From Ulota crispa (taxonomy: Eukaryota; Streptophyta; Bryopsida; Orthotrichales; Orthotrichaceae), in NCBI GenBank assembly GCA_963920765.1, contig OY987249.1, positions 5,934,188-5,998,187 of the forward strand: a stretch of DNA of 64,000 nucleotides. The letters are read 5' to 3'. Below, piece after piece: positions 6,301-54,861 of the stretch. The notes beneath the pieces are model-generated. The model saw nothing but the letters and a program-made list of their open reading frames with translations, was not told where the DNA came from and ran no database searches. Each line of letters opens with the position of its first letter. The stretch's first letter is position 1. Position numbers and translations under genes: made by a program.

Positions 6301-9300
6301 TCACTGACACCTGTTAGTGATAACACCCACCATCCTCGTATTGTTTCAGACCTATGTGGTGCAACGTCTACGCTAATGTAATGAGAATATACCATTAATT
6401 ACTGGAATAACAGTGAAGACTTCTGCTGACTCTGAATGCAGGGAGGAAAACCGGTTAATAAACTAAAAGATCCAGCGGTGCTGTGTTAAGATGCACTTAA
6501 AGCATACTTAGCAACTAAGTTAAAATGCTTGCAAATCATCAAAGCAATCCATCTTCTGATAGTCGAAGAAACTTACATGAGAAAAACCACAGAGTTTAGG
6601 AATGAAAAGGAAAAAGTAGTGACAGACGAAACACCTACCTCAGGAGCATAATGTGGATTACGTAGCTTTGTAGTGATGTAGAAACGGAATTTCTCATTAT
6701 ATTCTATTACGCTGTCCCCAAGTCGAATCTGGAGGCTCCCTGCTTGCTTGAATATTGCCTTCACCAGCAACGGCTCAAGTGTAGGATCCAGCTCTTCGAA
6801 AACATTCTCTAACAGCAGCGGAAATCCAAATTGAATGCAAGTTTCCAATTTCCTCACAAAGTCTCCATCAGACAATTTCATGACCTGCAAATTGTTCTGC
6901 CGTTCCCTGGTCTGCACAATTGACATAGAAAGCATGTTTTCTTCTCATTTCGCGATTGTTTTACGATCACGAGGAGCATGTCACTACCTACTGTGCCAAG
7001 ACCTATCTAAATCTGATGATCAGACAAGTAGTTATTAGTGATGACGACATACCATTACTATGAAAGACTTCTTCTTTACGAGTGCTTTAGCGTAAACTTA
7101 TTTTTAAATATAACTCATTTCAAGTTCGTTTTTGGACAACCGCCTTTCCGTTCTAGAGCTGTTCAATACTTCAATCTGATGTCTTGCCCGAGAAATGAAG
7201 GCAAAGGTTGTAGAATCACAGTCAAATCTTCTTATTTATTTCTTTAATTAATAGATTCCTTATTATGAGTTAAAACACCTATATTGGTTTTCATTGTTCT
7301 ACTCCCAAACAAAAACTTAGGTGTTAATGGTTAGACTTTTTGCACCCCTGCTATTGTTAGGTGTGCTGTTGTTACGTATGTCTAGATAAAAGTTAGATCC
7401 TCAATATATAAAGTATTGTAGGATAAAACTGGACATTCCAGATGAAAAAATAGTTGAAAAATGGATGTAGAGGATATAGAAAGTTTAACAACATTTTAAT
7501 TTATATTGGAAAGTTTCTCAACGATTAAAACTGCTGGTCGATTCAAATCTCATGATTAGATATTTGTTACTCTCAATTGCTAACTACAGGCTCAAGCATG
7601 GTTGCCACATTGGGCTGAAGTGCCCGATTGAGGTCATGGTCCAATGAAGTCAACACATGTGACTTTAAAAAAATGGTATAAAATGATTAAAAAAGCTTCA
7701 TACATGCGAGTGACACTCATTGTTGCTAATATGAAGTCAAAATGTAGATTCAAAGCCATATCACATAATAAAAATGAAAAAAGATAATATAATTCTTTCA
7801 TTTTTAGGTAAAAAACCCTAAAAATGCCTCACAAAACACAAGAGGGCAGACATGTCTGTCTGTCATTTTTGTGCGTCCGCATGTGCTGTCCGAGAGCCAA
7901 AATTTGCCCAAAGTAACAACCATGGGCTCAAGTATACAATATGGAGCAGCATATCTAACCTTGATCCACTTATTAGCTTGTTCTTGTGGGTCGATAAGCA
8001 GAGGCCATCTTCGGGATGATGCAATGATGATGGCGTTATCAACAGAGAAACTGTCATTCGGCAGACCGGCGATCACCCAATCACGTATTGTTACAGGGTT
8101 TCCAAGTACTGCAGACAGCTTAAAGACAGGTGAGCAAGGTATGTGCTTCGACTTGCAAAGCGACATCCACTTATTCAAAAGAGATTCTCTGTACGAAAGT
8201 GTCACAGCTCCGAGATAGGCCACATAACCAGAGGCTAGTAGGACATCCCCTGTCAGGTCAACGTATAGTTTCCCCAGATCCATGACCACTTCTGTCCATC
8301 TCACTTTTTCTCCTCCCAAACCTCCAATAAGCTTCTCAGCCCGCACTAGTTTCTGCAAATATCACATACCCATGCCACTTTCCATGTTGAGAAAAATATA
8401 CATGAGCCAAGATTTAAACTGAGAAAAACAGAGTCCTTTTATGGCCATCAAATATAGTCAACATCACGCATTGGATCATCATGCTTTAGTAAAAAGATTC
8501 AAAAAAGTTTACCCCAGGGCCGCTTCAGGTTACACTTGTCAAAGCAGCAAGCTTGAGGTAACAAGCATGACAATTGAAACAACATCATGTGCAACTAGCG
8601 GTGGGATAGCAAGGTTAAAATAATCCAGTGCATTTAGGATAGCTTAAAACCTTGTTCAGTCGGATGTATTAAGCATGCCAGGTAGGAGCATCTCGTCATA
8701 CTCATCCTTGTTACTCTGACCAGTGTAAGAGTTCTAATTGATTAAAACGAGGAGAATCAAATCGAAATCAATTTTAACGTCAAGGATGCTTTTCTTATCT
8801 CAAGCTTACCAAATTCCAGGATTTGTCTCTCTTGCCCATTTTTTGAGTCAGCGTAAGCAATGGCCATTGACGATCACGGGTAGGGTAGGGCAGGCAACGA
8901 GAGAGGTTCAATACTAGTCCATTTTTAAAGGAGAAAGACGGTGACCCAGTCTATTACCTTCTCACAGTTGTCAACCTCCGCTTCAAGAAGCCTCTTTTTC
9001 TCATTCATCTCTTCCAGCTGCTCTTGAAGTTTTGCTAGCTTTGCCTGTACTCCTTGTAATAAAAATTTCTTTGCGGCAAGCTGAACCTGAAGCTCCGTAA
9101 ACTCGGCATTCGCTTGAGCCAGTTTCGCTTTTTTTGGTGCTACCACCTATAGATTTCATAGAACAAAAAACAGTTCATAATCTGTATGGCCCGCAATTTG
9201 GGTGGCACACGAAATAATGAATAAGAGACTAGTAAGTGAAATGAACGGTGAAGTTTCAATTTAGGCTGTACCTTAGCCACCCGGTCATAACTCTCCATGG

Positions 9301-15300: not shown

Positions 15301-18300
15301 GATTTTGATGGAGTGGGAAGAAGGGCTCTTTGAATTTCCCTGTAAATATGGACTGTAGTTGTAACAAGAACTTTCCCTGTGACAAGAATCTGCAAACAAC
15401 AGGTTTTGTAACTTCAATCCTGTCAACCACAAGGACGACTAACTTGCTGCAAGTTTTGAAAATAGAGTCCTCATGAATAATGATAATACATGAAAGGAGT
15501 TCAAACATCAGGGGCACATGGAATCAGATACTTTACAGCTCGAAAAATCAAATTTGCAAAGACTCACTGGACTTAAGATTGTCATTGGCAGAGCAGCAGG
15601 ATAAAATCGTACATACGGTCAAAATGCCGTGTATCTAAGACTACCATACAAGCACCAAGACCATCTCATTGTCAAGAAAATTGATTATGAATCATTTCAG
15701 CGATCAGCTTTGGTATTACTTACATCATTAGAGAGACGGCGGCTACGCACCCACCAATCCACAATGGTTTGAAAAACGGTGTCGAGGGTTGAATCATCAA
15801 AGTCAATTATATACAGGAGATTGAAGTGGCGAAGGTATCGAGGCGTCACATGGTTCCGGCCCCCTCCAGGTGGGCCCATGGCCGCAACAAATTGGATGTC
15901 CAAAAGGGTTCTGAAACAATTCTCTTCTCTGTCGTACCTGGCAGGTGTACACCATGCTTTGATGTGTTTATTAGGTCCTTGATTAAACAACTTGAAGTTT
16001 TTGAAAAAAAGAACCCAAAAATATAACAGAGAAGTGAAGTTAACACCTATGCTATCATCTGTACAACTTGTAGACCAAAACAAAAGAAAAACTGATCGGG
16101 GAAACATAGCATTTAAAAAATCTGTTTGGGTGAGAAGTTTGAGGTACATGGGCCGACGAGAGGCAAAAGTTGGGTTCTAAGACACTATAGTGGATGCCGA
16201 CAATCCACGACTGTGACATACATTGAAATTCTATTCCAAGAGAAGGAAATACCAGCCTCCATGGTCCATCCATTGCCGCAAAATTTCTATTGGTGGTTGT
16301 GCGCCGTAGGTTTCAAGGGCAGGCATATTCAAGTCGTCCACAAAAATAACACACTTTGTACCTAGTGGTGGCCCGTATACATTCTTCCGTCTTTTATCCA
16401 ATTTAGTATCAATAATCTCCTGTTCAAAATTTAACCACTTTTGGATGTTAGAGCGCAGGTCACGCGTTTGACAAGTGACTCCTCTATATATAATTTTGTG
16501 CAGGCATCACATTTGCCATGCCATTACATGCATGAGCATTTACAGCTTTGAGAATGATGATTCACAATACCTGTGTTTCATTTGCGTTTGTCTGAGCAGA
16601 GAAGGTTATCATGATTTTGCGATAAATTGATTGATTAATATTATATGAAAGCACATTCTTCACGTACACAGTTTTCCCTGCTCAAGAACAGGAAATGCAT
16701 ATTAGAGTTTCGTAAAGCGTAATCTTTCAGAATGGTACGCACGTAATTTTAATTAGCTCAGTATAAAGTAACATCTAAACGTGCACGGAATGTCAAATTA
16801 AAACAAGTGATAGAATATTGTAACTAGAGTGCTAGGAGGTCTGTGTTTGCTACTTTGCTACTACGTTACTGCTTTGTGCACAAAAAAAGGGTTAAAAAAT
16901 GTGCAGTAGTGCACAAACCTGTGCCAGTCGGGCCACCAAAGAGCACATGAACTTGGTGGGTAATCAAAAGCGCCAATAAGAACGAGTATCGTGCCGTATC
17001 AATGGTTGGAACAATAATATCGTTGAATTGAGCATCAGCAAGAGGACCGCGCTTGTCAATAGTGTCCATCCAAAGCTTCCATGCCCCATCTGGCTTTGAG
17101 AAGGTGAAAGCATATACAGAGTGTTTTTCTGGGAACATTAGTGACATGGTAAATTTGGGCTTTGTGACAATAAATCCGGCACTGAGCTCGTAACCCAGGT
17201 CGTCTTCCTGCTTCAGCAGCGAACGATAAAAGCCATCAAACTTTTCTCTCCCATCGTCGTCCATGGAGGCTCCAACAGTCCAAACAAGAGCCATAGCAAA
17301 GAGGCATTGCAGCCATATCTTCCTGTCGTCTCCAGTAGGTGCTGCCATACCAGTATTTTCTTCCACACCAGCAGCTTCAGTGGCTGAGCCTCGCCGGACC
17401 ACCACATCCGGGATCTTAAACTCGTCTAACAAGCTTTTATACATGTTCATGCAGTTTTTTGGTAAAGCAATGGTGGACGTTGGAATTGGCTCCTTGCAGT
17501 GCTTCTTCACAAAATCAACACACGGATCAACAAGCCAATCCAACATACCCCCAATTATGACAAAGTCGACAAGATGCAGGAGCGTGTACTTAAAACTCAT
17601 ATGCCTAAGCCACGATTCCTTGAGAGGGTGCCACCCTATTGAGCTAGGCTCTGTATATACCATGCCGCACCTGCTGACCGTAGCAGGTGAAGCTACTGCC
17701 AGATCCTGTACTTCAAATATGAGATTCATTTGATTTGACATTTGGACTATTTCCCCACTCATTAGACACAGCTTCTTGTTGTCGTCCAACACCGTATTCA
17801 TGTTTTCGATCCAGACCTGCTTCCAACACAGTTACTGGGTAGTCAAACGCCACACTAAAGGTACTCTAGACTAGCATACAAAACTTAGTAACTCCAATGG
17901 TGAAATCTCAAATCACTTTACATAAGAGTTGAGAAAGGTGTTATCATAAGAGTTTCATACGAAGTATATTGCTATCAGTCATATATTGCGTGGTAAAGAA
18001 CAAGTAAGACGAGAGTTTTTGAGAAGGGCATGGAGTTGTAGTACCGCATCAACTGGTCCATCAAAAATAACCCATTTGCGATCCGGAGTTGGATCCACAG
18101 CAGCATTTCGAAAGGCTTTTGCAAGTATACCATCAGTCCACTCATGAGAAACGGGATCAAATTGACCATACAGCTGACCGATATAGATAGATTTAGGATT
18201 GAGACAGAAACATCTTGTAACTTGCTCCCCATCACCTGCTTCTTTCATGTCGCCCAAAGCTGCCGCCAAAACACGGTAGCACTCGGTTTTTGCCCCATAT

Positions 18301-29646: not shown

Positions 29647-30960
29647 CGCTGACGCCGATCATCACTCACTGTTCCAAAGATACAAGATCGACCTGCATCG
29701 GATGAATTTGAATTAATATCATGCAATGCCGTCAAATAATATACGTCAAGCTCAAAATCAAATGTTGAACTCACATAGACCTGGCTACAACAAAGATTCT
29801 TTAATGTTAAGCAATGTGAACATTGCAATTCAATTTCAACTCTCAAAAACTGGTTTCAAAATTAAATTCGAACGTCAGACAATGTGAACAATTTGGAGCA
29901 AATTTAACTGAAGAGCTTGCTAATAGATACAACGATACAAAAATCAAATCAACGTCTGGCGTTGCCAATTTCATTCAAATCTTAGGTCAACATGAATATC
30001 TAGCTTTAAATCGTTGAAATTACACGTACGAGATCTTTGGCAACAAGTGCCAAGGACAAATCGATCGACTATGAGAAAGATTCTTTAATGTTAAGCAATG
30101 TAAACATTGCAATTCAAATTCAACTTTCAAAAATTGGTTTCAAAATAAAATTTGAACGTCAGATAATGTGAACAACCTGGAACAAATTTAACTGAAAAGC
30201 TTGCTAATTAATAAGTTAGATACTGTGATACAAAAACCAGATTAACGTCGGACGTAGTCAATTTCATTTCAATTTTAGGTCAACACGAATACCTAGCTCT
30301 AAATCACCGAAATTACACGTACAGAATTTTTGGCAACAAATGCCAAGGACAAATCAATCAGTTCGTGAACAAAGCACATGCTACTTCATCATCCACAATC
30401 ATGGTTTCAAAATAAAATTCGAACGTCAGACAATGTGAACAACTTGGAACAAATTTAATTGAAAAGCTTGCTAATAGATACAGTGAAAGAGAAACCAAAT
30501 TAACGTCTGATGTAGTCAATTTCATTTCAATTTTAGGTCAACATGAACACCTAGCTCTAAATCACCAAAATTACACGTACAGGATCTTTGGCAACAAGTG
30601 CCAAGGACAAATCGATCAGTTCGTGAACAAAGCACATGCTACTTCATCATCCATGATCAATTCACAGCGCCCGAAACCTCACCTGCGATTGTCGATCGGC
30701 AATTGCGCTTTGCCTTCTTAGTCTTTCCTCTGGACAAAGACGATCAGCTTCATAAAATGGACTCACTCCAAGTATCCGTAGAGGCCATATCACTCCAGAT
30801 TGTCACAACTCTCGATTGAACCTTCTTTTCCGAAAAAACCTGCCCAATATCATGCCTTGAGAACGCCTTGCAAACTACCGAGCGAACACAAAAGCTGCGC
30901 ACAACCGTTAAGTGGAAATGGCAGCCATAGCCATGGCCATGGGCGAGTTCAGTTACTAGT
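29647..30960 (-). promoter_or_regulatory. Probable 5' leader and leader intron of the dynein gene
   Basis: Upstream of the ATG at 29646 there is an AG acceptor at 29693-29694 (GATGCAG before GTCGATC). A strong donor, CGCAG before GTGAGG, lies at 30681-30682 on the minus strand. Joining them would give a non-coding first exon of roughly 30683-30950 and a leader intron of about 1 kb. The proposed exon has higher GC than its surroundings, as expected for transcribed sequence. This is inference: no transcript evidence is available and no TATA box was convincing. Confidence 0.35.
29793..30655. repeat. Tandem repeat, about 285-bp unit, two full copies and one partial
   Basis: Three adjacent copies can be aligned by eye. 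Unit 1 starts at about 29793 and unit 2 at about 30079, both with AGATTCTTTAATGTTAAGC. Unit 3 starts at about 30400 and lacks the first 50 bases. All share GAACGTCAGA, TTTCATT, TAGGTCAACA and CAACAAGTGCCAAGGACAAA-like blocks. The array lies just upstream of the dynein start codon, inside the proposed leader intron. Divergence between copies is modest, so the expansion is fairly recent. Confidence 0.85.
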
Positions 30961-36098: not shown

Positions 36099-39000
36099 AT
36101 GGCGGCCGTGTCGTCAGCCTGCGCTGTGCTCCCCTCCGACGGACGAGCTAGCATGGTGGCCAGAGGACAAGATGGAAATGCTACTTGCAGTGAAGGTGGA
36201 GTGGAGTGCGTTATGCGGTCGGCGAGGGGAAGCGTGCGGCGGATTGCGTCTGTACGGTGCGCTCGGTCATGTTTATTTCTTGAGTGGAATTCGTGTTTTC
36301 AGAGAGGTTTTGTTTGTATTTTTTGGAGCGGGATATGTGCTAGGGTTTCGGATAGGGTTTTACCTCTTAAGAATTGTAATTTTTCCATTCGCGTATAACT
36401 TAGTATCATTATTAGCATGGACAGAACCTCAAAGAAATCTGTTACCGAATCAAAGAAGATTGCAACGCTCCAAAGAGCTCATCAAAATAGTATGAGTAGA
36501 TGATGTAAAACCTTGTACGAGTACAAATGCCGAGGTGTGAGCAATTTATATACATTGTGTGAGATGCTGTGTTCGTTTTACCGCTTAAGAATTGTTTGTC
36601 GTAATGTTTCCGTTCGCGCTTAGTATCCTTATTAGCATGGACAGAACCTCAAACAAAATCTGTTACCGAATCGAAGAAGATTGCAACGCTCCAAAGAGTT
36701 CATCAAAATAGTAATAGTAGATGATGTAAAACCTTGTACGAGTGCTAATGCCGAGGTGTGAGCAATTTTGTGTGAGATGCTGTGTCCGGTGGTTCCAGGA
36801 TTGGTGGAAAGGGCTTATAGAAATTTTTGGATATGCAGGATCAAGCTGCCTTTGTCAGCGTGCCCTACGAAGAGAGCAGTGCGATACAATCGAGCGCTGA
36901 ATGTAGGCGCTGTGTTGGTGACGAAGAGCTGGATGGGCAGCGAGGAAGGCATTTCGAATGCCGAGGAAGCCATGGCACGGGACGATGTCGTCGTGGCCTC
37001 GTTTGCAGGTGCGATTGCGGAGGAGAACGAGGAGTTCTCTTCGGAGTTCCCTTCGGAGTTCGACTTGTTGCGCCTGGAGAGAGCCAGGTTGAGCGACATG
37101 GAGGACTCCTTCCGAGCCGATTACGATGCAGAGTCTGCGTTGCTGGAAGCAGATCAAAGTTATGTCCAGCATCTAGAATGGCTCCTGGGAGGCGTGTCCT
37201 CGCTCGTGTCGGAGGCTGAGGTGGGCACCGCATCCACTGTTGCCGTGGATGATGCAGGTACTAATCTGAAACAAAAATCAATTATGTCCAAGGCTTTGCT
37301 TGTGAGGAAAATGATCTTTCGGTCGAGGGAGACCTGTCTATCACTTGCTTAACACCAAACAGAATAATCATGCCATTGATCACACACTATGCCTTCTCTG
37401 TGCAGTAACCATATACTCTTAACTGTACACTAACCACGCCCGAAATAAATAAAAAATAGCACGGTTATGTGATCAACTTTTACTCTCTAGTCATGTAAAA
37501 AACAACCATGAGCAGTGAGATGTGCGGTGAAGAGGAAGCATTTGCTTTTAATAAATGTTCGATCACCAAATGCTCCAGAACCTTCAAATCATTTCACGTA
37601 ATATTGAATCATTAGAAACTTGGTGTGTGCAACCAATGGCATATTTTCTGTAATGATGACGAAGATGATCTGTCATGTTCAAGTCCGTAGTTGAGCTTGG
37701 AATGCTTGTAACGTGATGAAAATGGTGAGTCGTTATTTGAAATCAATACATGCCAGAATGTCAAGCGGATTAACATATGTCTAGCTTGTAGATTCCAAGA
37801 CAGCGGGGACAGCGGGGACAGCAACAGACGAGTTGCCTCGTGTCAACATTACGGTCAGGTCGAAGCGCAAAGGAGAGAGGGTGAAGAAGCGGGAACGAGC
37901 GTTGGAAAAGGCTGAAAAGGTCGCCACTGCTCTTGCTACTGCGGCTGTTGTGCCGAAGCCGAAGAAACTCCAGCTATCGGAGGATCCTTCAGATCCAGTT
38001 CGTGCTTATCTGCGAGACATCGGGAAAACCAAGCTGCTAACAGCATCCGAAGAAGTCGCATTATCTCGAAAGATTCAAGTGAGAGAAACTCTCTTTCTGC
38101 TGTTTTGTCTAATACTCCCTCTGTCCCTCTAAAAACGTCCAAAAAGCTTCCTTGCAAAGAGTTAACCGTGTTTTCAGTATTTGTGCTAGTGACACATGCA
38201 TTCTAGAATCAATATACCATTTACCGAATATGCAAAATCTCCAGCTTTGATGTCGCCGTTTAGGCACCCAAATTCCATGCAAAAGTACCATATTTGTGCA
38301 TGCTACCAGCTCCTCATTATTGATGATTTAAAGATTAGTAGCAACAATGGTACCTCATATGGACAAGGCCAAGCTTTCTAGGAGAGGAATGCTCTCTAAT
38401 CGCTTAACTTGCCCCCATAAGATCATTGAACATGGCAAATCAGCAAAAGGGAGCTTTTTAGTGGTACAAGAAATGTGTCTGATTTGGAGCTTTTTAGAGG
38501 GACAGAGGGAGTAATACTTATGACAATAACTCTCTTTGAGGATCGAGATCTCATAGCTTTTGAGGGCCGAGCTCAGACCAACCTCCTTTTGGCATGCAGG
38601 ATCTACTGAAACTGGAGAAAGTGAAAGCTGATCTTCAGCGACAAGTAGGACGGGAACCCACCTTGAGTGAGTGGAGTCGAGCGGTAGGAATGCAGCAGAA
38701 TGCTTTTGAATCGAGAGTGGAGGAGGGGCGGTTTTCGAAAGAGAAGATGGTGAAGTCGAATTTGCGGTTAGTTGTGTCCATAGCCAAACACTACCAGAAT
38801 CGAGGCATGACTTTTCAGGACCTGATTCAGGTCCAGTACCATATGTACTTCTGAACCTGAGCTCTTCTGCTTTTGTGCGACTTTTGCTGCAACACATTGC
38901 TTCTTGTGAACCCTCTTGTTGTTTGAAACTTGTTCATTACAAATGTGAAACCCTACAAAACTGAACCATTTGATGTGAAATGGATGTGTATCCTGAATTG

Positions 39001-40236
39001 GTGTTGGTGTGCTTTGCTTCTTTGGATCAGGAAGGGAGCCTGGGCTTGATGCGGGGAGCTGAGAAATTCGACGCTGACAAGGGGTTTAAGTTTAGTACGT
39101 ACGCACATTGGTGGATTAGGCAGGCTATCACACGATCCATTGCTGATCAATCCAGGACTATTCGTTTACCAGTGCGTTCCACTCTGATTCGTTATATTTA
39201 TATGCTTCTATCATTGCTCTGATCTAAAAGAACAACGTTTAAGTTTAGAATTATTTTCACTTAAAAATACTGTTGTTTTTATTCTCGTTTGATTTCCTGC
39301 TGGCATTATACCATGAAGTTCACCATTTAGTTCTTCTGTTGTTTCGTCAGATTCATGTGTACGAAGTCGTCTCACGGATTAACAAAGTGAAGAGGGCGTT
39401 GGTTTTGGAGCATGGGCGGCAGCCACTGGATGAAGAAGTGGCGGAGCTGGTTGGTTTGAGTGTGGCGAAGTTGCAAAGCATAGTGAAATTAGCTAGGGCC
39501 CCAACGTCGATGGACCGGCCCATTGGCGACGAGAATAGCGCCTCAGTTGGGGTATGGTTTCAAATTCCCATCAAGCATCAAAAGGACCTTCATGCTCTTT
39601 TCTCAATTATGAAGACTCTCCTTTGTCCAGTTTTACCTATCTACTGAATCAATACGCTCTTCACGGATTCCGGTGATAAAAAAATTGGTCTCACTAGATG
39701 CACATTTTTCACAATATGATCATTCGACTAGGTCACTTTCTCAACCATGAATTTAGGGCTTAGCATCAAGTACAAGGATTAGGGTTTGACATCAGATACA
39801 ACGGTTAGGGTTTAACATCATATTTAAGGGTTAAGATTCGTGGGTTTAGAATGTTGGAATTCCTGTATGTGATGTCTTGGTCATGGGAGTTGCAGATTTA
39901 GGGTTTAGGGTTTAAGGTCTGATTCAAATTTCGTCGTCACCGCAGGAATTGGTTGCTGACAAAGGTGTCGAGTCACCGGAGGATGGTATTGCGAAGCGAT
40001 TGCTGAAACAAGATGTGGAGGGTGTGTTACACACGCTGAGCCCACGAGAGAGGGAGGTTCTTCGATTACGGTATGGATTTGACGATGGACAGTCGAGGAC
40101 TTTAGAAGAGATAGGCCGCATCTTCAAAGTGACTCGAGAAAGGATACGACAGATTGAGGCAAAAGCCATGAGCAAGCTGAGGCAGCCCGGTCGGAATAGC
40201 ATTTTAGTGGAATATTTACATGTGAAAGGCATGTGA
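36099..40236 (+). CDS. Plastid-type RNA polymerase sigma-70 factor
   Basis: This is a sigma factor that should direct the plastid-encoded, bacterial-type RNA polymerase to promoters. Seven exons join in phase: 36099-36256, 36839-37257, 37792-38078, 38600-38830, 39031-39171, 39351-39551 and 39946-40236, giving 575 residues. Conserved parts in order are [20 protein letters not shown] (region 1.2), [20 protein letters not shown] and [14 protein letters not shown] (2.1-2.2), [20 protein letters not shown] (2.3-2.4), region 3 in the sixth exon, and [20 protein letters not shown] plus [20 protein letters not shown] (4.1-4.2, the -35 helix-turn-helix). All core residues are present. Exon 1 ([16 protein letters not shown]...) looks like a transit peptide: few acidic residues, many Ala, Ser and Arg. 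Exons 3-7 are firm; exon 1 and its donor are inferred from phase. It is nuclear because it has introns and a plant-type target peptide. Subfamily not assigned. Confidence 0.92.
36357..36787. repeat. Tandem duplication of about 218 bp in sigma intron 1
   Basis: Two adjacent copies, about 36357-36574 and 36576-36787, share ATTAGCATGGACAGAACCTC, GAAGATTGCAACGCTCCAAA and GATGATGTAAAACCTTGTAC blocks. They lie between the proposed first and second exons of the sigma gene. Identity is high, so the duplication is recent. The unit contains no open frame that continues the protein. Confidence 0.85.
38113..38513. mobile_element. Stowaway-like MITE in sigma intron 3
   Basis: The termini ACTCCCTCTGTCCCTCTAAA and the complement GAGGGACAGAGGGAGT carry the well-known CTCCCTCYGT start of plant Stowaway elements. 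TA target-site bases lie at both ends (38113-38114 and 38512-38513). About 400 bp, without coding sequence. It lies inside the intron between the third and fourth sigma exons, so splicing removes it. Confidence 0.9.
39753..39830. repeat. Three 26-bp tandem units starting TTAGGG, in sigma intron 6
   Basis: Three successive 26-mers begin TTAGGGCTTAGCATCAAG, TTAGGGTTTGACATCAGA and TTAGGGTTTAACATCATA. About 70 bases later TTTAGGGTTTAGGGTTTAAG (39897-39916) gives short runs of the plant telomere motif. All lie between the sixth and seventh sigma exons. The motif count is too low for a real telomeric tract. Confidence 0.7.
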
Positions 40237-52032: not shown

Positions 52033-52592
52033 GAGGGTGGCTTCACACTATGATTGGCCAAGTCGAGAGGTTGTGGAATTGAGTGGCCAAACTTTGGTGA
52101 GTGGCCAACAAAATGGGATGAAAATAGGTATTAAATTATTGTTTTTGACACCTTTGGGCGCCCTTAGTGTGAAGCCTCCAAAGGCCAAGTCCAAAGGCCA
52201 AACTCTTGGCAATGAGCTTCCATGGACTCTCAACTTGAATGGCCATAGTGTGAAGCCTCCAAAGGCCAAGCCCTAAAGTCCTAAGCCATAGCATTTATGA
52301 GACGTTCCAAATCCAATGGCCAAGATCTTGTAAACTTTTGATTATTTTATGAAAACAATGTGACGGCCTCTCAACCATAGTTTGGGTCTCCATTTTTGCT
52401 TGATCCAATCTATTGCCAAGAGGCCCTCAACCTTGGATGATAAAGTGGTGCCATGTAGACATTTGGAGGATGATGGCCTTTGGAGTTTGGCCCCTAGTGT
52501 GAAGGGTTGAGTGGCTGGACTCTCAATTTCTTGCAATCTGATTGGTGCAGACCAACGACCTCTTAACCTTCGGCCATAGTGTGAAGCCACCT
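52033..52592. mobile_element. Foldback element with GGTGGCTTCACACTATG ends
   Basis: The ends GGTGGCTTCACACTATG and CATAGTGTGAAGCCACC are 17-base inverted repeats. The block AGTGTGAAGCCTCCAAAGGC occurs twice inside (about 52171 and 52247), 76 bases apart, suggesting internal duplication or nested insertion. Length about 560 bp; no coding sequence. Confidence 0.7.
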
Positions 52593-52594
52593 TG

Positions 52595-53228
52595 AGTATT
52601 CATTTGTGTTTAAGTTGCCCCACACTAATTTCCCAACTTGTCGCACTGTACAAATATTAACTACTGTTACAGTAGTTTTCATCAAAAAATTACTGCAACA
52701 AATATTTTTCAAAGGGTTTGTCAACAACAATGAAGCTGCCAAAAAAATAAACTAAGGTAATGTACTCATAAATCGTCCATCTAAGGGCTGAAACTAAATA
52801 ATGGGGAGGTGAAACATTTTGAATTGTTTTTCAGTAAATTTTCCTTGAAAGACAAGAAGAATTGACATCTAACCCAGATTACTTCATATTTTTTGGAGCT
52901 TTGCAAAATTAGGTTTGAAATTTTGGAGTGCAAAGACCATAGGTTTCTAAAATTGCCCACCTCCTCAAATGTACACTTCTTGTACATTTTGAAAACGTAT
53001 GAAAAAAAACATGTACAACATGGGAATATTTAAGAAGGTGGGCAATTTTAATGCCTAGATGGTTTACAAACATACAACCTTAGCAGTTCCCAAGCTATAA
53101 ACCATGTGAAATTTAAGTATTTAGAGAGTTGCATGCACCTCCAAGTGATCAAGTGATGAGTCATGCAATAACTTACCAGGATAAGGCAACTTAATTGTCA
53201 AGGCAACCTAAATGCAATATCTAGTGTA
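52595..53228. mobile_element. GAATATTGC..GGTTGCC-family MITE split by a nested MITE
   Basis: The left part (52595-52754) and the right part (53091-53228) align with the uninterrupted element at 49436-49727. The middle is a separate insertion (52755-53090). The rejoined sequence matches the 49436 copy at the breakpoint with one TA removed. Confidence 0.72.
52755..53090. mobile_element. MITE with TA target nested in another MITE
   Basis: 336 bp, flanked by TA (52753-52754 and 53091-53092). Ends AGGTAATGTACTCATA and CATACAACCT are inverted-repeat variants, followed inward by CCATCTAAGGGC paired with GCCTAGATGG, and a hairpin GCCCACCTCCTCAAATGTAC at 52955-53050. Removing it restores the host element. 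Confidence 0.75.
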
Positions 53229-53263: not shown

Positions 53264-54861
53264 TACAACGACCTCAAAAAATGAGTCTATGTGGGTATTT
53301 GGGTCAAAAAAGTGACATTGTAGAGAGTATGAAAAATCCAACCAAAAAATTTTAAACAGAAAAGTTTGAGAGCATGAGGTAACACATCATCTCAAAAAAA
53401 ATTGAAAAAATATTGCTACTAAATTTAAAAAATACATAATGCTAAAGTTGACTATGTACATAGACTCATTTTTTGAGGCCGGTATTCTTACAACTTCAAA
53501 TGGGTGTAGAATTTAGAGAATTTGTGTTTTTTGGTGATTTTTTTTGCGGTTTCTCTTCTTGTCTCTTGTAGAACATATTGTATAGTGTAGAAAGAAAAAT
53601 TGGCATGATGAAACCAATTTCAAGGTAGAAAACAAGAGATATTGGTGCTCATTTAATGAAATATAAGAGTATAAGAGAGATTGTAAAATTTCTTGGTTTC
53701 TCACAAAGCACATTGAATAAAGTGAGGAGGAAAGTTTGTAGTAGCTTAGAACTGCCAAAACAAGATGCTCCAAAGATTTTTATTGCTTCAAAAAGACAGC
53801 ATGTAGTATGTTTGGTCATGGTTGGAGGGCTAGAAATGACATCACAAGTAGTAGAAGTATTGAAAGAGGGTAGAGAGGTAGGGTTTTGTGACAACATACT
53901 ATAGTAGGCTTTGAGAGATGCCAAATTGAGTGCTTGTGAGAATGTGTCAAAGTCTTATTTGTCACGAAAACATGCACTTGCTTTGCAAAAATTCACAAAA
54001 ATTAGACAATAGAGGATTGGAAGAGATTTTTTTAGTAATAAGAGGAAAATAAATTGTTTTAATTGAAATGGGACTATGGGAGGGCCTAGTATTGGGTCAA
54101 TAACAATGAAAGTTTGCTTGATTGTGAAGTGAAGCAAACAATGAAGCAATGAAGCATGGTACAAGGTCTTTGATGCTACAGAGTTGCATGACATCAAGAG
54201 GTCTAGGTGATTTATAGAAGGTGGATGGTCGTATAAATGCATAAGACTATATTTCAATCTTACATGGAGATTTGTACTTGTGTTTGGAAAGATCAAGATT
54301 TTCAACATTGATGGAGTTATTTTTGAGCATGATAATGCTCCTATTTATAAAGCAAAGATTGTTCAAAAATGATTTTAAGAGCATCCAATTACTATTTTAG
54401 AGTGACCAACTTGATCTTTGGACCCAAATCCTATAGAACATGTTTGGGAAATTTTCAAACATTGTTTGAATTCCTACCCAACTCCTCAAGCATATCTTTC
54501 ACAATTATGGGAATATGTGCAAGACACTTTTAGAGCCATTACTACAAAATAATGTGAGAGATTACATATTAGCATGCCAAGTCAAATTTCAGTTGTTTTG
54601 GTTGCTTGTGACAAGTAGACAAAATTTTGATCACTTTGCATATACTGCCTCAAAAAATGAGTCTATGTACATAGTCAACTTTAGCATTGTGTATTTTTTA
54701 AATTTAGTAGCAATATTTTTTTCTTTTTTTTTACATGATGTGTTACTTCATGCTCTCAAACTTTTGTGTTTAAAATTTTTTGGTTGGATTTTTCATACTC
54801 TCTACAATGTCACTATTTTGACCCAAATACCCACATAGACTCATTTTTTGAGGTCGCTGTA
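53264..54861 (+). mobile_element. Tc1-like DNA transposon (DD34E), decayed
   Basis: A 1.6-kb element bounded by TA (53264-53265 and 54860-54861). The two ends are inverted repeats of about 220 bp (53264-53484 and 54643-54861). Their tips read TACAACGACCTCAAAAAATG and, on the other strand, TACAGCGACCTCAAAAAATG. The internal region encodes a broken Tc1-family transposase on the plus strand. Each 220-bp end block is itself closed by an inverted copy of the tip motif next to a TA (inner edges at 53484 and 54643). Size, TA target, ends and transposase all fit Tc1/mariner. Confidence 0.92.
53656..54640 (+). pseudogene. Tc1-like transposase pseudogene
   Basis: One reading frame runs through the element with many stops (TAG, TAA and TGA). 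The N-terminal part (MKYKSIREIVKFLGFSQSTL) looks like the DNA-binding helix-turn-helix. Further on are KRSR, FEHDNAPIYKAK, which holds the second catalytic Asp, and SLDPNPIEHVWEIFKH, which holds the third catalytic residue (Glu) 35 positions later, a DD34E layout. Where the first catalytic Asp is expected (an FSDE-like site) the frame reads FSNK. Each stop can be explained by a C-to-T or G-to-A change, so the copy is inactive and was probably methylated. There are no frameshifts in the part I translated. Confidence 0.88.

Follow-up and report, generated by a model that had tools for sequence, protein, structure and literature searches.

How a transposon of the Tc1 type could multiply in a plant genome while carrying a ruined transposase gene is the question raised by an element at positions 53264–54861 of the window, the 64,000-nucleotide stretch analyzed here. 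The window comprises bases 5934188–5998187 of contig C8 (21.2 Mb) in a genome of 274.8 Mb and 157 contigs. The interval contains a complete Tc1/mariner insertion with TA duplications, terminal repeats of about 216 bp and a decayed transposase. Its coordinates in the preliminary description proved exact: 53264 and 54861 are the outermost bases of the two TA target-site duplications (53264–53265 on the left and 54860–54861 on the right), which can be read directly from the sequence. The element proper (53266–54859, plus strand, 1594 bp) is a non-autonomous Tc1-like DD34E copy, delimited by its inverted repeats and by the other copies of its family, family A, in the genome. With the TA included, the left terminal inverted repeat measures 216 bp (53264–53479, plus strand) and the right one covers 54647–54861 (minus strand). 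When 222 bases per end were compared, 211 of 224 aligned columns were identical. The left end reads CAACGACCTC and the right end, read inward, CAGCGACCTC; the termini of this particular copy are CAAC and CAGC.

The left flank (53080–53228) is part of a very common repeat with 3401 first-look candidates in the genome; the 40 scored copies are 83–92% identical and mostly stop near 53228. An empty site of the insertion was not found among the best 40 of 3401 candidates in a search of the element's own genome. Beside the element lies a 43-bp imperfect hairpin (52948–53050) that is 81% complementary with a 17-nt loop. A segment of about 556 bp at 52036–52591 is flanked by a perfect 17-bp inverted repeat, GGTGGCTTCACACTATG, whose motif recurs within it; this segment may be another small transposon. 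Elsewhere in the window, a 258-bp unit is present in two tandem copies (30135–30653).

The preliminary description had placed the element in a plant genome, and it does sit in a nuclear chromosome that looks plant. When ten open frames from the window were scanned with Pfam, two were assigned to dynein heavy chain, two to sigma-70 (regions 1.2 and 3) and one to a C2 domain. The dynein heavy chain and sigma-70 frames are located at 7807–8361 and 16869–17831 (minus strand) and at 37785–38129 and 39249–39644 (plus strand). The sigma-70 frames presumably belong to a plastid sigma factor and the dynein to the flagellar type, a combination that would indicate a plant with swimming sperm, for example a moss or a liverwort. 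Nothing was found in favor of an origin of the contig or the element from an animal or a fungus in the sample, and the presence of these domains in the same window speaks against it. Moreover, the window lies within a contig of 21.2 Mb, and full-length copies of family A are spread over the large contigs C1 to C8 (C1 to C10 range from 41.4 to 15.8 Mb), which makes a stray contaminant contig unlikely. Taken together, contamination is very improbable.

Relatives of the element were sought in the same genome at the protein level, with 123 of 488 candidates scored. The search led to two further families, B (L059–L062 and L069–L073) and the more distant C (L063–L068 and L074–L078). Family B shares the terminal motif of the window family, as seen in L060 (CAGTGACCTCAAAAAATGAGTC), whereas family C has a different terminal motif, and its proteins share about 26–42% identity with that of the window copy or of L059. 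In family B, L059 has a single stop over 363 codons and L061 an open frame of 270 codons; several copies of family C carry only three to six stops. With the Pfam model of the Tc3-type HTH, L061 and L064, a family C copy, scored over the cut-off, while L059 fell short of it (29.4 vs 31.5). Both L059 and L061 exceeded the DDE_3 cut-off, and L064 gave no DDE_3 match.

The transposase pseudogene of the window copy (53656–54630, plus strand) consists of an HTH region followed by a DDE domain, interrupted by stops and frame disruptions. Over 326 codons the frame contains 14 stops, the final one at the expected end, and in its middle part it is out of register with the sister copies. It encodes the motifs EHDNAP and DPNPIEHVW. 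Between the second catalytic Asp (EHD, codon 54331–54333) and the catalytic Glu (NPIE, codon 54436–54438) there are 34 residues, the same count as made initially, with four in-frame stops counted as residues. The codon of the first catalytic Asp (54037–54039) encodes Asn here. The complete DDE triad is therefore absent from the window copy, whereas L059 and L061 carry Asp, Asp and Glu with spacings of 92 and 34, the latter stretch being free of stops in both.

Comparison with models and solved structures placed the element in the same class. The window copy matched Pfam DDE_3 at 4e-05, under Pfam's cut-off, and L059 at 1.9e-11. Against a library of solved structures, Sleeping Beauty was matched at 1.6e-09 by the window copy, at 7.6e-43 by L059 (5cr4) and at 1.1e-37 by L061; mariner-type transposases were matched by L059 at 0.0046 and 0.038 (SETMAR) and at 0.13 to 0.24 (Mos1). 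Plant DD39D mariner-like elements, which belong to the Tc1/mariner superfamily and target TA, have 39 residues and Asp as the third residue, in contrast to 34 and Glu in the window element. That the element is a typical plant mariner of this kind has next to no probability, since Glu at a spacing of 34 is found in the window copy, L059 and L061 alike and the nearest solved relative is Sleeping Beauty. The original assignment to the Tc1-type DD34E group rather than DD39D was thereby upheld. The window copy belongs to DD34E/Tc1 by descent, not as a working enzyme.

A DNA search of the genome gave at least 30 full-length matches, namely the window copy and 29 others at 86–92% identity (40 of 81 candidates scored), which excludes a chance origin of the element. 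The study set of family A was made up of 28 of these 30. Pairwise differences among the 28 copies averaged 0.087 and ranged from 0.035 to 0.122. Of the 28 copies, 23 have a TA at each end, a count made with an end-finding pattern that itself starts with TA and allows 7 mismatches. Premature stops at codon columns 83, 84, 239, 241, 250 and 321 were found in 27, 28, 27, 28, 20 and 25 of the 28 copies; the stop at column 250 is the least shared. This list, like the codon-position count below, was confined to the parts whose frame matches the sister families, because the middle of the pseudogene is out of frame relative to them. At the catalytic positions, the first residue is Asn in 26 copies, the second is Asp in 18 and Glu in 6, and the last is Glu in 23. 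Stops common to 20–28 of the 28 copies, together with the loss of the first Asp in 26, show that family A multiplied after its own enzyme was dead.

The phylogeny was consistent with such a history. Family B was represented in the tree by 8 of its 9 copies (all but L071), and 4 of the 11 copies of family C served as the root (7 were left out). Among the 8 family B copies, the 28 copies of family A formed one clade with a stem of 0.155 and an ultrafast bootstrap of only 89. Fixed differences between families A and B amounted to 22/200, 26/200 and 29/199 over the three codon positions of the frame-matching parts, a slight rise at the third position, and the stem of family A looks near neutral. 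When the whole frame was counted, 62 of 112 fixed changes from B to A were G to A or C to T, as would fit methylated, silent DNA.

The CAGT-like termini and TA duplications characteristic of DD34E/Tc1 elements were also found. The terminal pattern CAGYGACYTCAAAAAATGAGTC, with up to 2 mismatches, gave 84 matches in the genome and its reversed control gave 0; 25 of the 84 were unpaired. The possibility that the family had given rise to MITEs was considered and rejected. Of 30 forward–reverse pairs within 4.5 kb, 22 were 1500–1620 bp apart, and the sole pair under 500 bp was an inner–outer pair inside the copy L026. No short derivatives were seen genome-wide with the CAGYGACYTCAAAAAATGAGTC pattern at up to 2 mismatches.

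An enzyme acting in trans would most readily have come from family B, given the shared terminal motif. Nevertheless, a search for an intact donor transposase, in which 119 of 827 candidates were scored, gave 130 matches, none of which spans the protein free of stops; in L060, it is covered by two stretches without a stop that lie in different frames. Differences between family B copies over the codon positions were 0.148, 0.124 and 0.112, and the compared copies are themselves decaying. The mover of family A may thus have been another enzyme, now lost. Between families B and C the differences were 0.467, 0.377 and 0.542, a pattern that shows past coding constraint.

The ends of the element have an unusual layout. 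A motif scan at up to 3 mismatches detected the terminal motif four times in the window, each time inside this element, with one outer and one inner site per end and the inner site inverted. The left outer site, CCTCAAAAAATGAGTCTATGT (53272–53292, plus strand), is a putative transposase site beside the cleaved end, and the left inner site (53458–53478, minus strand) faces it without a CAGT. On the right, the inner site (54648–54668, plus strand) is again opposite in orientation to the outer site (54833–54853, minus strand). The same inverted arrangement of outer and inner sites was found in families B and C, and the inner sites are without the CAGT terminus.

To describe this layout quantitatively, 86 ends were compared (53 of family A, 13 of B and 20 of C); 3 of 56 ends in A, 5 of 18 in B and the family C locus L074 were left out as having an outer site that was unlocated or an end that was misplaced. 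Sleeping Beauty is of the IR/DR kind, in which a second site lies in direct orientation within each terminal repeat. Here, the best inverted match resembled the outer site of the same end more closely than any direct match did in 82 of 86 ends, the exceptions being the left ends of L011, L066 and L067 and the right end of L076. The best inverted match is typically about 189 bp away and lies at 185–194 bp in 74 of 86 ends; in family C the distance is 188–189 bp in 16 of 20 ends. In 14 of the 86 ends (3 of A, 2 of B and 9 of C), more than 5% of 200 shuffled sites equaled the inverted match. Single family C ends are thus often weak, and the case for this family is carried by the repeated distance of 188–189 bp. 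Since copies within a family share descent, the independent support consists of two unlike ends per family and of two types of site, one in families A and B and the other in C.

Rather than a transposase site, the inner motif might be a promoter element or what remains of an ancient palindrome. Its missing CAGT terminus would suit such an origin, as would the ends at which shuffled sites match equally well, and its role in binding is putative, deduced from the motif itself. On the other hand, neither a leftover nor a promoter element would readily account for a near-constant distance in three families although the spacers of A/B and C are unlike, nor for the consistent advantage of the inverted over the direct match. 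This explanation is therefore considered unlikely. The alternative, that plant DD34E elements of this lineage have a distinct layout in which outer and inner sites face each other at a nearly fixed distance, unlike the direct repeats of the Sleeping Beauty type, is put forward tentatively, as less likely than not. If it is true, the paired-end complex would have a different geometry, and each end would be a self-contained inverted unit that could be copied onto the other end, giving symmetric and highly mobile non-autonomous derivatives. Provided that they are bound by transposase, inverted double-site ends would be a naturally occurring variant with which the pairing of ends by Tc1-type transposases could be studied. 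No description of an inverted inner site was found among the titles and abstract starts listed by searches of the open-licence literature; older work on Tc3 lies outside that scope. Wording on inverted sites in an excerpt of PMC3630058 concerns Helitrons.

One such copying event is seen in family A. Where both ends were compared, at 4 loci of family B and 6 of family C, the 5′ spacer does not resemble the 3′ spacer (z from −1.3 to 3.9), whereas the two spacers of family A are alike (z of 35 to 37 for the window copy). The left spacer of the window copy is 80% identical over 163 positions to the 3′ spacer of family B, with a score of 210 against a shuffle maximum of 83, while against the 5′ spacer of family B it scored 27.5, close to the shuffle mean of 27. 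Just beyond the inner site, the left side of the window copy is 84% identical to the 5′ side of family B. Accordingly, the right unit has been copied in inverted orientation over the left one, and the inner site marks the border of the exchange. This explains why the left terminal repeat resembles the 3′ and not the 5′ end of the sister family: in family A, the left end unit (the outer site and the spacer of about 165 bp that separates it from the inner one) duplicates the right end unit in inverted orientation. Gap repair, or else template switching from one inverted end to the other, may have caused the exchange, which would predate the burst of copies.

Taken together, the locus is very probably a dead non-autonomous copy of a Tc1-type (DD34E) cut-and-paste element in a plant, itself probably a spore-bearing one, and belongs to a family that was moved in trans by a related transposase and whose left end had been swapped before it spread. 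The enzyme was probably that of a relative with the same terminal motif, of the family B type. At each end it would probably have bound the outer site and the inner site together, as the arrangement of the motifs suggests, and have cut at the outer site only, a restriction that may be due to the inner site being without a CAGT terminus. The excised element would then have been pasted into TA sites. The family thus represents a dead element that spread after its own enzyme was lost and in which one end had been replaced by a copy of the other.

The preliminary description had remarked that the DD34E type is seen mainly in animals, fungi and protists. Its occurrence in a plant is not new, as excerpts of Liu and Yang (PMC4054914) report such elements in 2014 for Physcomitrella and nine angiosperms, and DD34E/Tc1 elements in plants are also cited in part of PMC7731502. 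Fungus-to-moss transfer was proposed in 2020 for PpTc1 and PpTc2, and the same source, as excerpted, gives no significant hits for similar elements in Marchantia, Arabidopsis and rice (PMC7466625). The lineage studied here may likewise have been acquired at some time through horizontal transfer, with a fungus or an animal as the source, an origin that is possible but doubtful. It would be in line with the published phylogeny, which in the excerpt sets PpTc1 and PpTc2 near fungal elements (PMC7466625). In addition, no relatives were found in the scans of plasmids (by DNA, or by protein with 181 aa of L059), and none was confirmed in viral contigs or in prokaryote genomes, as expected of a eukaryotic element. 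A recent arrival of family A is nevertheless unlikely in view of the mean pairwise difference among the 28 copies, the long stem of family A and the presence of diverged related families in the same genome. Horizontal transfer concerns the origin of the lineage and is compatible with the spread in trans proposed above. Whatever that origin, the genome analyzed here is one more plant genome with DD34E elements, which give the impression of having diversified there over a long residence and not of being an isolated curiosity.

The element thus belongs to a known group of plant DD34E elements, and the unusual part is the layout of its ends. As described in excerpts of PMC4054914, PpTc1 and PpTc2 of Physcomitrella patens, a non-seed plant, are alike in having a DD34E transposase, TA duplications and CAGT-type termini, and their sizes of 1.58 and 1.71 kb are to be compared with 1594 bp here. 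They differ in having terminal repeats of 33 bp, as opposed to about 216 bp, and in retaining some intact reading frames and, for PpTc1, transcripts, whereas the copies studied here are dead. Inverted inner sites are noted here, the comparison with PpTc1 and PpTc2 being one of published description rather than of DNA (PMC4054914). Tc1-type ends have been described with two or three direct repeats in a paper on Bari3 (PMC4120734, in part), and a paper on Bari1 likewise gives direct repeats for such ends (PMC3828361, in part). Sleeping Beauty and Bari resemble the present element in their related transposase, the spacing of 34 and the presence of more than one site per end, but their repeats are direct, whereas here the second copy is inverted, typically about 189 bp away from the first.
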